Part shown: positions 22,674 to 32,830 of the stretch, piece after piece | How positions within the stretch are numbered: the first letter of the stretch is position 1 | How the letters are laid out: each line of letters starts with the position of its first letter | From: Candidatus Falkowiibacteriota bacterium | Lineage (GTDB): Bacteria; Patescibacteriota; Patescibacteriia; Patescibacteriales; UBA12465 | Direction: 5' to 3' | NCBI GenBank assembly: GCA_903847415.1 | Contig: CAINDR010000004.1 | Location: 1 to 33,052 of the forward strand | DNA: 33,052 nucleotides | Position numbers and translations under genes: made by a program | The notes under the pieces: model-generated | Told to the model about the DNA's origin: nothing | The model's database searches: none | The model's input: the letters and a program-made list of their open reading frames with translations, nothing else

Positions 22674-22874
22674 TTACATACTCTGATCCATGTCAGCAGT
22701 AATTGTTCCACAGAAAGTGCATTTGCAGCGATTTGGCGGATAATCATTTTTTCCTGGCGCAGATACAAAATTGTGATCACCTAACCTTACTTTGCCAACG
22801 TGATTGCAGCTGGAACAGCCTTTTCCTTGACAGTGTGGACAAACTACTATGTCTAAGCAATTTTTTTCACTCAT
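22674..22874 (-). CDS. Small zinc-ribbon protein
   Basis: A 66-residue protein with two cysteine knuckles at the N-terminus, CPHCQGKGCSSC at residue 12, of the CxxCxGxGC type seen in DnaJ-like zinc fingers, and a second set, CKCTFC, at about 50. Zinc binding is likely; the partner is unknown. It has its own promoter (TTGACA, 18-nt spacer, TATTAT) and its own terminator, which supports expression of a single small gene. Confidence 0.75.
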   Translation of the reverse strand: MSEKNCLDIVVCPHCQGKGCSSCNHVGKVRLGDHNFVSAPGKNDYPPNRCKCTFCGTITADMDQSM

Positions 22875-24144: not shown

Positions 24145-24609
24145 TTAATCATTTAACACAATAACCTGGTCAGCCACAACTTCACCAACACATTCTCCAA
24201 ACACTGTGTCTGCGTAGGCACAAGTCATCCCGATTAGTCTCCCGACAACCCGCACATTCGCACCAGGCTCGCCAGTATATTTATTTTGCCCATCTACGTA
24301 AAACTGCTTATACTTAGTATTTTTACTAAATCTTTCAATCCCAAAATCTTCGCCACTAACAAAGGTTGATATAACTCTCCCACTCCAAACAACGGGATAC
24401 TCTTGTTTAAATCTTTTTTCACAATCACAATCAATAAAATCTCTTTTTGGATAAATAATTTTTGACTTATCACAACTATTGTCGATGTAAGTTGTAGCTA
24501 ATAGCTCACGAGTTGGTTTCGCGATAAGAAAAACAGAGATAACAACAATGGCAATTGCTGAAGACCAGAAAAATATTCGAGATGACGCTTTAAGTGATTT
24601 ATTTAACAT
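24145..24609 (-). CDS. Membrane-anchored extracytoplasmic protein with OB-like domain
   Basis: A 154-residue protein with one N-terminal membrane helix (about 11-30, IFFWSSAIAIVVISVFLIA) and an outer domain. Five cysteines occur outside, including DCDCEKRF (about 60) and TCAY and GECVG (about 128-140). The stretch GANVRVVGRLIG ... GEVVADQVIVL has the strand pattern of a small OB fold. No enzyme motif is recognised. It sits 5 nt after the coiled-coil/helix-turn-helix gene and 11 nt before sppA, so it is co-transcribed with both. It may be a substrate or partner of the peptidase. Confidence 0.7.
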   Translation of the reverse strand: MLNKSLKASSRIFFWSSAIAIVVISVFLIAKPTRELLATTYIDNSCDKSKIIYPKRDFIDCDCEKRFKQEYPVVWSGRVISTFVSGEDFGIERFSKNTKYKQFYVDGQNKYTGEPGANVRVVGRLIGMTCAYADTVFGECVGEVVADQVIVLND

Positions 24610-25957: not shown

Positions 25958-26215
25958 TTAAAAAGGGCTGGGCCCAGCAAAATGAGGCGTATGACAACAC
26001 TTGCCATCTTCTTCAATATGTTCTGAAATTGGAGTCCAATAAAATTTATCCCTTTTGGGGCAAATCATACTTGGGCTAATGGTGCCATTATTTCTACTTT
26101 TTGCTACTGCGCATGCACAATAAACAGGAACTGTGCCATTATATTTCTCTTCCACATTTCCTTTCCACCTATTACATTTATTGCAGAGATCGATATTTAT
26201 TTGTTCTACTTTCAT
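25958..26215 (-). CDS. Small Cys-rich protein controlled by a SAM riboswitch
   Basis: From ATG at 26215 the protein has 85 residues with eight cysteines: CNKC at about 10, YCAC at about 33, MICPKR at about 50 and KCCH at about 73, which suggests binding of zinc or an iron-sulfur centre. I do not recognise the family. A longer frame starting at 26254 is excluded because it would run through the terminator stem of the riboswitch. The upstream SAM-I riboswitch predicts that the gene is shut off when S-adenosylmethionine is plentiful, so a link to methionine, sulfur or methylation is likely; this is inference from regulation, not from the protein. Confidence 0.7.
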   Translation of the reverse strand: MKVEQINIDLCNKCNRWKGNVEEKYNGTVPVYCACAVAKSRNNGTISPSMICPKRDKFYWTPISEHIEEDGKCCHTPHFAGPSPF

Positions 26216-26234
26216 AGATTTATTTATTAATAAT

Positions 26235-26263
26235 AAAAAAGCTCTTCCCAACAAAGGAAAGAG
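26235..26263 (-). terminator. Riboswitch-linked intrinsic terminator
   Basis: On the minus strand CTCTTTCC (26263-26256), loop TTTGTT and GGGAAGAG (26249-26242) are followed by C and six T. It lies between the SAM aptamer and the ATG at 26215, as expected for the expression platform. Confidence 0.85.
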
Positions 26264-26291
26264 TTTCTATTTATGAAAATAAAAAATCGAC

Positions 26292-26396
26292 CTTTATCTT
26301 TCCCTTATCGGGCTAGAATTGGCACCTTCCGGATGGATTACTCCGGGGTTGCTGGCAGGTCATAGGGCTAGTTCCCTCGCTGCACTCTTTATAAAA
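26292..26396 (-). promoter_or_regulatory. SAM-I (S-box) riboswitch aptamer
   Basis: Read on the minus strand it shows the S-box core in order: a P1 arm TTTTAT, AAGAG, GCGAGGGAACTAGCCCTATGA, the K-turn part CCAGCAACC, a P3 helix CCGGA...TCCGG, AAGGTGCCAATTC, a P4 element and AAAGATAAAG, whose ATAAAG pairs with the P1 start. Spacing and the invariant AGGTGCCAATTC / GAAAGAT blocks agree with the known SAM-I family. A terminator stem follows. On SAM binding the terminator should form and the Cys-rich gene be switched off. Confidence 0.9.
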
Positions 26397-27848: not shown

Positions 27849-28541
27849 TTACTTTAATAAGAAAATCGCATCCCCTTGCTTAGTGAGCTTCTCTGCTCCA
27901 TCTCGTCCCAATATTAAAGCCGAATCTTCTTTAGTGGTTGTTTTAAACGCAAGGCGGGCAGGAATATTATCTTTCATTAAGCCAGTAAAAACTTCCGGAG
28001 ATGGCCGCGAAGAAGCCATTATCATATGGATTCCAACAACGCTACTCGTTTGCGCCAATCTTAATACTTGAGATTCAAATTTACTTGTTTCTCCTAAAAT
28101 AAAATCGGACATTTCATCCATCACAAAAACCACATAAAACATTTTATTTTTGTGTTTTTTGTTGTAAGTTTCAATGTTTTTACAACTGGATTCCATTAAA
28201 ATATCATAACGACGATTTACTTCATCTACGCACCAATTCAAAGCATCGACAACGTCCTTGGCTTTCCATAAAACCGGCCTCAAGAGAAAGGGATTCCCAT
28301 CGTAAACAGGTAAATCACATTTTTTAGCATCAGCTAAAATAAGTTTCAAGACATCTGGAGTGTTTTGAGCTATCAAACTATTAATAACGGAATGGAGAAA
28401 ATAAGATTTCCCAGAACCAGTTTCTCCACCTACAAATAAGTGTGGTAGCAAATGCAAATCAAAACTAAACGGTTTGCCATTGGTGTCCTTATCAAAAGTA
28501 ACAACTAAATTTGCTGCCACTGATTTTAGCTCTGTTTTCAT
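27849..28541 (-). CDS. Free-standing FtsK/SpoIIIE-like motor domain
   Basis: From ATG at 28541 the protein has 230 residues: the RecA-like motor of the FtsK family alone. Walker A GGETGSGKS is at 38-46, KLILADAKKCDLPVYDG at about 66, Walker B VVFVMDEMSDF at 137-147, and the family signature SSRPSPEVFTGLMKDNIPARLAF at about 177. The membrane domain, linker and the DNA-recognising gamma winged helix of cell-division FtsK are all absent, and the chain stops soon after GDAIFLLK, slightly shorter than usual. It begins 7 nt after the hsdR stop and is therefore co-transcribed with the type I restriction genes. It may pump or grip DNA for that system or derive from a conjugative/integrative element. 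The longer frame from 28586 overlaps hsdR and is rejected. Confidence 0.85.
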   Translation of the reverse strand: MKTELKSVAANLVVTFDKDTNGKPFSFDLHLLPHLFVGGETGSGKSYFLHSVINSLIAQNTPDVLKLILADAKKCDLPVYDGNPFLLRPVLWKAKDVVDALNWCVDEVNRRYDILMESSCKNIETYNKKHKNKMFYVVFVMDEMSDFILGETSKFESQVLRLAQTSSVVGIHMIMASSRPSPEVFTGLMKDNIPARLAFKTTTKEDSALILGRDGAEKLTKQGDAIFLLK

Positions 28542-28548
28542 ATATTTA

Positions 28549-31500
28549 TTATAATTTCCCGCCAGAAATATCAAAAAACCTTTCAAAAAAACTTGTCAGT
28601 TTAGTTAAGACGCTTTCGCGTTTCTTGCTACGCTCACCTGTTGGAGAAAATCTAGAAACTGGTGGTAAAACTTTTGTAATAGCGGTACCAGTTGTTGCAA
28701 CACTACCATCACGGAAGGAATTTTTTACAAATAAATAAGTTGCATCGTGGTCCAAGCCTTCGTTATCAATGATCTTATCGAGTTCCTCAAATTTTTTCTT
28801 ATCTACAAATTTATGCCAGTCTTCATCGATAACCGAATGAACATCAAGTGAGTTAATAAATTGATTAATAAGCTCCTTTTTATTTCTTAATTCAAAACTG
28901 GAATCTATAGCCTTATTAATATCAATCAGAATTTCACGATTTTTATTGTGATCTTCATGATATCTCTTGATAAGCCCTAATACAAAATCAATATTAATTT
29001 CCACCTGTTTAATGAGCTCCATCTCAAATACTAAATCGTCATTAATATTTTCTTGCTCAACCTCTATGCCCTTTCGAAATTCATTATAGAGGTCTATGTA
29101 CATACTGTGGTAATCCTGAACATCGCGCTCAGTCAGAATCTTATTGCCAATAAATTCATCAAAAGTTGTTAAAATATTGCGTACTCGTAAAATGCCACTA
29201 TATAGTTTAATAAAATCTTTTTGCGCTTGTTCGCCAATAATGCGTTCGCCCACAGGAAATTTTTCCAAGAGTTCGGTTGCTAGGCTGACATAGCCCCGGA
29301 CTTCCTTGTCACCATCTTTATATCCATTATAATATTCTTCATATGATTTAAGAAGGACAATACCACCCGCTTCTTTATCGCCAAATAGTGCGATAGACTC
29401 ATTTGTCGCTTTTTCTAAATTACGAAAGCAAACAACGTTTCCAAAAGTCTTAACGCTATTTAAAATACGATTTGTGCGTGAAAATGCCTGTAAAAGACCA
29501 TGCAATCTAAGATTTTTATCTACCCACAAAGTATTAAGTGTTATCGCATCAAACCCAGTTAAAAACATGTTAACCACAATAAGCACGTCAATTTCACGAT
29601 TTTTAACTCTTAAGCTTACATCTTTATAATAATTTTGAAATTTATCAGACGAGGTATCATAAGAAGTTCCAAACATAGCATTATAATCAGTAATGGCGTT
29701 GTCCAGAAAATCTCTAGAGCTAACATCAAGCCCGCTAGTATCTTCAGAATTTTCGTCTATCATTCCATCAACATCCTCATCATTCACTCCAAAGCTATAA
29801 ATGGTTGCTACTTTAAGTTTTTGGTCACTCGGCACGTCAGCGAGTTGTTTTTTAAATTCAGCGTAATATTTTTTAGCAACATCAATAGATGAGACAGCAA
29901 AAATAGAATTAAAGCCAGCTAATCTGCGGTCCTTAAGTTTATAAAGACTATTGCGCTTGGTTTTCTGATCAAAGTGTTCACGAATATAACTAACAATGTT
30001 TGTTAATCGTTCTGGTGATGCAAGTACTGCTTCGCGATCAATATCGCTCACTTTTTTATCTTCAATATTCTCAGCTTCATGAACTGTAGAAACATAATCA
30101 ACTTTAAAAGGTAAAACATTTTTATCAGCGATAGCGTCAACAATAGTGTAGGTGTGTAATTTTTCTCCGAATGCCTGCTCTGTAGTTTTCAAATCTGGTC
30201 TTCCTCCAGCAGATGCATTCTTCGAGAAAATAGGAGTTCCAGTAAAACCAAAAAGATTATAGTTTTTAAACGTTTTTGTAATTGCAGCATGCATGTCACC
30301 AAACTGAGAACGATGACATTCGTCGAAAATAAGAACCACGTGAGCATCAAAGATAGTGTGTCCTGCATTACGACCGATAAAACGATCGAGCTTCTGTATA
30401 GTTGTTATAATAATACGTGTATTTGGGTTTTCTAATTGTCGCTTTAAAATTGTTGTGCTGGTATTGCTATTAGCTGCGCCTTTTTCAAATTTGTCATATT
30501 CTCGCATCGTCTGATAATCTAAGTCCTTACGATCAACGACAAACACAACCTGATCAACAGAAGGAATTTTACTGACTAACTGTGCTGTTTTAAAACTAGT
30601 TAAAGTTTTTCCTGATCCAGTGGTATGCCAAATATAACCACCTGCTTCTACTGTGCCAAGTTTTTTATAATTTGTACTAACCTCTATACGACTTAAAATT
30701 TTCTCTGTTGCTACTATCTGGTAGGGTCGCATAACCAAAAGTTGTCGATCGGTAGTAAATACACAATAGCGAGTTAAAATATTCAAAAGGGCATGCTTGG
30801 CAAAAAATGTTTTGCTAAAATCCATTAAATCGGTAATCGGACGATTAGTAGCATCTGCCCACCAACTAGTAAATTCAAAACTACTACTTGCTCGCTTACC
30901 TTTCTTTACTATTCCCTCACTTGATTCTTTTATATGTTCAGAGCGAGTAGTGTTACTGTAATATTTTGTATGTGTGCCATTAGAAATAATAAATAATTGA
31001 ACATATTCGAACAACCCAGCAGAAGCCCAGAAACTTTCACGCTGATAGCGATTAATCTGATTAAAGGCTTCAGCAATAGCAACTCCTCGACGTTTTAGCT
31101 CGACATGTACCATCGGCAAACCGTTTACAAGAATTGTCACATCATAACGGTTAGAGCGCTGACCATCTTCTGTCGTATATTGATTTATAACCTGCAAACT
31201 ATTGTCGTGAATATTATCCTTTTTAATAAGATATATGTTCTTAGTCGTCCCGCTGTCACAAATTAGATTCTTGACGTGATCCTCTTGAATTGTTGCAGTT
31301 TTTTCTGCGATACTTTGATTTGGATTAGCCAGCTCGCCCACAAAAAAACGCTCCCATTCAGAATCGGCAAAAGTATAGTTATTAAGCTTCTCTAATTGCA
31401 GGCGGAGATTCGCGGTCAAATCAGCCTCGGAAGTAATAGAGAGGTATTCGTATGCTTGAGTCTCTAATTGTTTAATAAAAGCCTGTTCGAGTTCTGCCTC

Positions 31501-31602
31501 GCTTTGATAATGAGCCACGCGAACACTATTTGTAGTATATTCCGCCACCACAGTACTTTGAGAATTTTCTGCGACAAGATTATATTTATTATTAATCGAC
31601 AT
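28549..31602 (-). CDS. hsdR: Type I restriction enzyme, R subunit
   Basis: The 1017-residue motor-nuclease of a type I restriction-modification complex, which translocates and cuts DNA lacking the host methylation. The PD-(D/E)xK nuclease motif is intact: YDVTILVNG with D154 and VELK with E168 and K170. The SF2 helicase follows, with TTGSGKT at 327, LIFDECHRSQFG at 424 and FTGTPIF at 453. The rest is the helicase second half (MFLTGFDAITLNTLWVDK) and the helical C-terminal part that binds the methylase core. The start overlaps the hsdS end by 11 nt. It appears complete. Confidence 0.96.
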   Translation of the reverse strand: MSINNKYNLVAENSQSTVVAEYTTNSVRVAHYQSEAELEQAFIKQLETQAYEYLSITSEADLTANLRLQLEKLNNYTFADSEWERFFVGELANPNQSIAEKTATIQEDHVKNLICDSGTTKNIYLIKKDNIHDNSLQVINQYTTEDGQRSNRYDVTILVNGLPMVHVELKRRGVAIAEAFNQINRYQRESFWASAGLFEYVQLFIISNGTHTKYYSNTTRSEHIKESSEGIVKKGKRASSSFEFTSWWADATNRPITDLMDFSKTFFAKHALLNILTRYCVFTTDRQLLVMRPYQIVATEKILSRIEVSTNYKKLGTVEAGGYIWHTTGSGKTLTSFKTAQLVSKIPSVDQVVFVVDRKDLDYQTMREYDKFEKGAANSNTSTTILKRQLENPNTRIIITTIQKLDRFIGRNAGHTIFDAHVVLIFDECHRSQFGDMHAAITKTFKNYNLFGFTGTPIFSKNASAGGRPDLKTTEQAFGEKLHTYTIVDAIADKNVLPFKVDYVSTVHEAENIEDKKVSDIDREAVLASPERLTNIVSYIREHFDQKTKRNSLYKLKDRRLAGFNSIFAVSSIDVAKKYYAEFKKQLADVPSDQKLKVATIYSFGVNDEDVDGMIDENSEDTSGLDVSSRDFLDNAITDYNAMFGTSYDTSSDKFQNYYKDVSLRVKNREIDVLIVVNMFLTGFDAITLNTLWVDKNLRLHGLLQAFSRTNRILNSVKTFGNVVCFRNLEKATNESIALFGDKEAGGIVLLKSYEEYYNGYKDGDKEVRGYVSLATELLEKFPVGERIIGEQAQKDFIKLYSGILRVRNILTTFDEFIGNKILTERDVQDYHSMYIDLYNEFRKGIEVEQENINDDLVFEMELIKQVEINIDFVLGLIKRYHEDHNKNREILIDINKAIDSSFELRNKKELINQFINSLDVHSVIDEDWHKFVDKKKFEELDKIIDNEGLDHDATYLFVKNSFRDGSVATTGTAITKVLPPVSRFSPTGERSKKRESVLTKLTSFFERFFDISGGKL

Positions 31603-32830
31603 ATTTGTTGAAAGTTAAGAGTTTTTCTCTGTAATATTCGTATTGAGACCTGCGGGCGGAAACTTCCGCCGCCAAACCTAATGAAATGTCGTTCATAAGT
31701 AAATCGAGTTTATCAAGATTTTTAACAATCTCTTGCTGGATCTTAATTGGCGGAACAGGAATGATTGCTTTTTTTAAACCAGAGGCATTTATAGACGAAA
31801 TTTTACCAGATGATATATATTGTTCTATCTGAGAATGAAAATTCTTAGTTTGTAAAAAATAAGAAACATATTTTGGATCCAAATTGTGTACAAAGGTAAA
31901 ACAGGCATCATGAGTTACAATATCCGAATCTCCTAACCACGCCACCCCTCTCCCAATATCTTCGATGGTCTCACCGGCCGCTACAATAATAACATCCCCT
32001 GGGTGTGCAACCCTGAGTTTTTTTGCTAAAGATGGCTCCAAAAAAGACTTAGACTCTCGTGCCCAGATATTATAATGGGTATACATTTCTCCATAATGGA
32101 TGCATGGGACACCTTTTGCAACAATATCGCTTTTAACGAATCTCTTTCCTCTAAAAAAAGTTCCAAGCTCTCCCAAAGTTTTATGCTCAACATCTTTAAT
32201 ATTAAACATTTCATCTCTATAATGCTTATATTGTTTCTTTCTGTCTTCTAGTTCTTTCTTGAGTTCTTTTTCTAGTTCCGCCTTTAGCTCTGTAAAACTG
32301 TCCAGAATTTCAACAATTTTTTCTTGAATTACAATTGGAGGAAGAGGAATTTTAATTGATAATATTTTTGCCATATCTGGGTGCTTAACCCCAGAACCAC
32401 GAAAACAATTTTCAATATAATCATTTTTAACTAAAAGATAGTAATAACAATATTTTAAGTTTAATATTTTATGATTAAATGAGCTGGCTAAGATATTTCC
32501 GCTATCAACAAACATGCCTTTGTAATATTTTAAATTCGCCGAACCGCCTGATGGGATAGCAATAACTTCACCGTTATTTAGATTTTCTCTGGCCAAATCT
32601 TCATTAGTCCAACCATTAAACTGTCCTGTAGACAATAATTTAACGCACCCATTGGGAGTTTCTAAATCCTTCAATTTTTTAGCGGAAACATGCCTAAAAG
32701 ATAAAACCTTTGTCTGTTTTTCTTTTGACACTCCATTGAATCTTTTATCCCAAACTGTGAGCTCCCTTAGCTCTTTAAATTCCATTACCTTCGGGCAGAG
32801 CTCATCTATTAGTTTGTCGATTTTACTCAT
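31592..32830 (-). CDS. hsdS: Type I restriction enzyme, specificity subunit
   Basis: A 412-residue DNA-recognition subunit with the standard two target-recognition domains, each closed by a conserved helix: LPPIVIQEKIVEILDSFTEL followed by a long charged coiled coil (about 165-205), and VPPIKIQQEIVKNLDKLDLL near 360-385. It sets the bipartite sequence recognised by both methylase and nuclease. No truncation is seen. Its ATG lies 12 nt after the stop of the remaining hsdM end, the usual M-S-R order. Confidence 0.95.
   Translation of the reverse strand: MSKIDKLIDELCPKVMEFKELRELTVWDKRFNGVSKEKQTKVLSFRHVSAKKLKDLETPNGCVKLLSTGQFNGWTNEDLARENLNNGEVIAIPSGGSANLKYYKGMFVDSGNILASSFNHKILNLKYCYYYLLVKNDYIENCFRGSGVKHPDMAKILSIKIPLPPIVIQEKIVEILDSFTELKAELEKELKKELEDRKKQYKHYRDEMFNIKDVEHKTLGELGTFFRGKRFVKSDIVAKGVPCIHYGEMYTHYNIWARESKSFLEPSLAKKLRVAHPGDVIIVAAGETIEDIGRGVAWLGDSDIVTHDACFTFVHNLDPKYVSYFLQTKNFHSQIEQYISSGKISSINASGLKKAIIPVPPIKIQQEIVKNLDKLDLLMNDISLGLAAEVSARRSQYEYYREKLLTFNKYVD

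Follow-up and report, generated by a model that had tools for sequence, protein, structure and literature searches.

A SAM-I riboswitch precedes small proteins of undescribed families in Patescibacteria, mostly in genomes without a detectable metK gene

On the minus strand of the window, the whole stretch of 33,052 nucleotides of Patescibacteria DNA analyzed in this work, a SAM-I (S-box) riboswitch aptamer (26397-26291) is followed by an intrinsic terminator (26263-26242) and by two small genes, the first encoding a Cys-rich protein of 85 amino acids (C; 26215-25958) and the second a protein of 95 amino acids (P; 25935-25648). The initial annotation had noted the aptamer core and the terminator, and both have been borne out. 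In a minus-strand scan the RF00162 model matched the aptamer over its full length (model positions 1-108 of 108) with a score of 62.3 bits (E 2.3e-12), well over the gathering score of 44.4, including the pseudoknot between the P2 loop and J3-4 (CUAG/CUAG). It is the single SAM-I copy in the assembly of the window genome (G000; 0.93 Mb in 64 contigs, 95.6% complete). The terminator, detected by a terminator scan and by comparison of the platforms of 15 leaders, consists of the hairpin CTCTTTCC-TTTGTT-GGGAAGAG followed by CTTTTTT. Its 5′ strand, CUCUUUCC, is also able to pair with the GGGAAAGAU stretch on the aptamer's 3′ side and thus to form an antiterminator; such competing pairing is present in the window and in its relatives, as judged by sequence and energy only. 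A promoter scan 5′ of the window leader gave a score not above chance. By its sequence, the window RNA is a genuine SAM-I riboswitch with a transcription-termination platform.

Upstream of the riboswitch on the same strand lies a gene (27238-26459) for an HD hydrolase, which the initial annotation had already named as a neighbour and which can now be placed in the RelA/SpoT type (PF13328, 5.3e-16; TIGR00691, 1.3e-17; best E value against solved small HD hydrolases 7.8e-26). The product resembles small alarmone hydrolases and ends in a zinc ribbon. Since the gene is located 5′ of the riboswitch, it is not under riboswitch control on present evidence; its presence fits a starvation theme. Farther along, an FtsK-like ATPase (27849-28586) resembling the SspH and mads_8 defence proteins of PADLOC adjoins a type I restriction system (HsdR, 28549-31602; HsdS, 31592-32830). 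A second small Cys-rich orf of 66 amino acids, CPHCQGKGCSSCNHVG, is found at 22674-22874.

The two genes behind the terminator have the sizes first proposed for them, and neither product matches Pfam or NCBIfam; the count of eight cysteines in the first has to be corrected to seven (C11, C14, C33, C35, C52, C73 and C74), four of which are conserved. These four, C11, C14, C33 and C35, are invariant in five relatives with the spacing CxxC...CxC. The AlphaFold model of C is poor (mean pLDDT 54), with a beta-rich N-terminus; from the invariant cysteines and this weak model it may be suggested that C probably binds zinc through a zinc-knuckle-like N-terminal part. The Cys-rich protein encoded in G027 is related to the window C with a local alignment score of 59, against 29 ± 5.5 in 1000 shuffles. 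A single-sequence search of genome_contigs with C found no relatives, and a sequence search of viral_contigs with the G027 relative gave no match. A five-row profile identified C with confidence in five of 362 genomes of the class (G000, G027, G139, G248 and G324), representing four genera and three families. The Cys-rich gene had been proposed as a new member of the SAM regulon, and a survey of its homologues for upstream S-boxes supports this: in all five genomes C stands directly behind SAM-I, and no confident copy away from a riboswitch was found among the 362. Between G139 and G248 the NG86 estimates for C are dN 0.08 and dS 0.47 (ratio about 0.17), and C evolves under purifying selection.

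The proposal was too narrow in one respect, as the 95-residue neighbour P and a third family, F, share the association with the riboswitch. A P profile built from three sequences (window, G139 and G319) and run on 380 genomes of the class detected P in seven of them (G000, G139, G319, G324, G209, G356 and G395). In all except G395, where the relative is weak and SAM-I was not found nearby, a SAM-I copy precedes P on its own strand at a distance of no more than about 700 bases. In G139 (39% identity) and G319 the P relatives stand directly behind the riboswitch. For any one locus, a crude estimate puts at 0.00035 the chance that a gene lies, correctly oriented, within the 700 bases that follow a SAM-I copy. 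Members of the F family are encoded behind SAM-I in G139, G248, G215, G305, G280 and G324, and F is fused to P in G319; this association is partly one of ascertainment, because the F loci were located via SAM-I or P. Across 250 genomes of the phylum the search for F yielded one marginal match. F evolves under purifying selection (NG86 for G139 and G248: dN 0.14, dS 0.63, ratio about 0.21). A fourth protein, D, defined by a 'DDNFH.MD' module, is encoded on the minus strand of the window at 27569-27258; a profile matched the module in the window and in L075. In G209 this module forms a fusion with P that follows a SAM-I riboswitch. Since C, P, F and D occur in varied combinations and fusions behind one type of switch, these pieces have been shuffled. 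A C-P fusion considered in G324 was dropped, the C frame there being apparently shifted and the fusion doubtful; at this locus (G324:C67, L074) the F and C frames behind the riboswitch appear disrupted, through either assembly error or decay.

Gene neighbourhoods of these module loci are not conserved and offer no clue to function, and leaders from distant families of the class may be very alike (window versus G215, 91%). Together with the restriction systems near the unit in the window and, as read from its orfs, in G209, this would suit a horizontally spread mobile cassette of leader and small genes, for instance a gene for defence or conflict that is switched on by SAM depletion, such as a SAM-degrading phage enzyme would cause. 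We hold this very unlikely: C, P, F and D have no usable match in PADLOC or PHROGs, their relatives are absent from phage records, viral contigs and plasmids where these were searched, and no mobility genes were recognised directly beside the window unit.

The search for known relatives was extended to Pfam and NCBIfam for all four proteins, again with no usable match, and to the sequences of solved structures, where neither the C profile nor a P+F profile found one. The fused P+F protein is modelled with confidence (pLDDT 85), and its fold has no informative relative by Foldseek (best E 0.088 in PDB and 0.028 among viral structures); the best VIA-align hit (Z 6.2) is in the range of common arrangements and covers mainly the F part and P barely. 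C, P and F are undescribed families without family or fold match. In the open-access literature covered, we found no paper joining a SAM riboswitch with Patescibacteria, nor any on SAM-I with CPR or Parcubacteria. As SAM-I normally governs methionine or SAM genes, C, P and F might be divergent components of a route by which SAM or methionine is taken up or salvaged, which would also suit host genomes that require SAM and lack metK. We consider this unlikely for proteins that are small and soluble-looking, show no evident membrane segments where their sequences were read, and match no enzyme or transporter family and no informative fold.

SAM-I is present in 105 of the 380 genomes of the class (E <= 0.001), and where the orfs behind it were read, these were in many cases metK and in a few methionine-cycle genes, as identified by reading the sequences. 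In the family of the window genome it was found in five of 39 genomes. Two of the five copies (window and G027) stand 5′ of a small Cys-rich orf and three (G014, G005 and G037; L008, L009 and L010) 5′ of a gene for a short MetK of about 323 amino acids, that of G005 being recognised from its N-terminal part, where the contig ends. Over aptamer and platform these three leaders are 79-91% identical to that of the window. The initial annotation had allowed that the Cys-rich gene might occur elsewhere without the riboswitch while the riboswitch preceded a classical methionine gene; the latter is what the metK leaders of the relatives display, and the former was not encountered. Other members of the family encode a canonical MetK of about 390 amino acids, about 44% identical to the short form and with no SAM-I match. 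The product of 24145-24609 of the window is 31% identical to a protein encoded about 2.2 kb 3′ of the G014 metK (L139:12924-13340); this being the sole gene found to be shared with that locus, it does not amount to synteny, and the idea that metK had been replaced in situ was rejected. Elsewhere in the class, tandem pairs of SAM-I occur in G118 (C10, L079:330-634) and G305 (C28, L080:891-1196), two genomes with no detectable metK, and precede other unknown proteins of about 207-239 amino acids, some of them zinc-ribbon-like (CPxCG...C). G139 has a third SAM-I unit at the start of contig C37 (L138:13-400), in which the riboswitch (13-118) is followed by a gene for a membrane-like protein of 73 amino acids (179-400).

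Twelve leaders of the module loci were compared over 34 base pairs. Standard pairing is retained in 90.6% of cells, versus 84.5% in shuffles, and drops below 47% when the partner is shifted by one column; two-sided changes are seen in 13 pairs, versus 5.8 in shuffles. The helices of the four-way junction and the pseudoknot between the P2 loop and J3-4 are maintained, the latter being paired in all 12 leaders (100%) with covariation in three of its four pairs. Compensatory changes maintain the pairing of the module leaders, that of the pseudoknot among them. The terminator scan was positive in 11 of the 12, the terminator of G356 being weak and seen by eye, and antiterminator pairing is visible in most leader folds.

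The metK gene (PF02773) was detected in 222 of the 380 genomes of the class and was not found in eight of the 11 that bear C, P or F loci (G000, G027, G139, G248, G319, G324, G305 and G280). A MetK query likewise found no counterpart in the two congeners of G000, and no archaeal-type MAT was found in the eight metK-less module genomes. Among genomes with SAM-I, metK is undetected in 8 of 11 with C, P or F loci versus 11 of 94 others (Fisher p 3e-5), a comparison that is approximate because only some of the other SAM-I loci were read for C, P and F. Since the assemblies are incomplete drafts, failure to find metK is not proof of its loss, and true absence from the eight genomes is graded as probable. 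RsmH, a SAM-dependent enzyme, was found in seven of the eight. These organisms look to be in need of SAM and incapable of making it, and most likely obtain it from outside. The remaining three module-bearing genomes (G209, G215 and G356) have metK, so SAM auxotrophy is not required for carriage of the module.

The likeness of the G014, G005 and G037 leaders, which precede metK, to that of the window, together with the lack of a detected metK in G000, its two congeners and G027, invites the view that the leader is a relic of a lost metK, with C and P behind it by accident and of no adaptive role. We regard it as improbable. The protein families in question recur behind SAM-I across several distinct families of the class, the leaders are kept paired by compensatory changes with their platforms intact, and G209, G215 and G356 have metK and yet carry the module behind a separate SAM-I. 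The recurrence and the compensatory changes leave this view disfavoured.

The reading that we prefer, and think likely, is that the leader is a SAM-I transcription-attenuation OFF switch on the C and P unit and that the two encode accessory proteins for SAM shortage. From SAM-I biology and the terminator layout we infer that the unit would be off with SAM: binding of SAM would stabilize P1 and let the terminator form, switching off C and P, and under SAM shortage the aptamer's 3′ side would pair with the 5′ strand of the terminator and C and P would be transcribed. C, P, F and sometimes D would then be small, reshuffled accessory families placed behind one switch in several lineages of one Patescibacteria class, mostly in genomes that would need SAM but be unable to make it. 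We also infer that C, P and F serve a response to SAM shortage, in which, for example, growth or uptake may be adjusted when host-derived SAM falls. The recurrence of the switch-gene pairing in related lineages suggests an undescribed response to SAM running out. A more specific version, in which SAM-I of SAM-auxotrophic, host-dependent Patescibacteria senses SAM supplied by the host and induces C, P, F and D when the supply fails, e.g. on loss of the host, is put forward tentatively, as a possibility that we doubt. Riboswitches are a reliable guide to the roles of unknown genes. The bacteria concerned are uncultured and reduced, with a physiology that is for the most part out of reach, and in them a known sensor points to three or four protein families not described before. 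If this reading is right, a feedback element would have been redeployed to sense an imported cofactor after loss of its synthesis, and a concrete entry would be gained to the starvation or host-contact response of such bacteria.

Compared with known systems, the window RNA shares with SAM-I (RF00162) the full aptamer, pseudoknot, terminator and antiterminator, but lies in a genome in which metK was not detected and precedes small orphan proteins instead of recognised genes for methionine, SAM or sulfur metabolism. Its closest counterparts in the family, the leaders of G014, G005 and G037, are 79-91% identical to it and differ in the gene that they precede, the short MetK there and C and P in the window. 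C resembles zinc ribbons and zinc knuckles in its two conserved Cys pairs, suitably spaced in all five relatives, whereas it matches no named zinc-ribbon family and its C-terminal half (PIS...HxPxF) is peculiar to it. The neighbouring hydrolase shares its HD domain with the solved small HD hydrolases of MESH1-like type and with RelA/SpoT, and differs from the small alarmone hydrolases by its C-terminal zinc ribbon.
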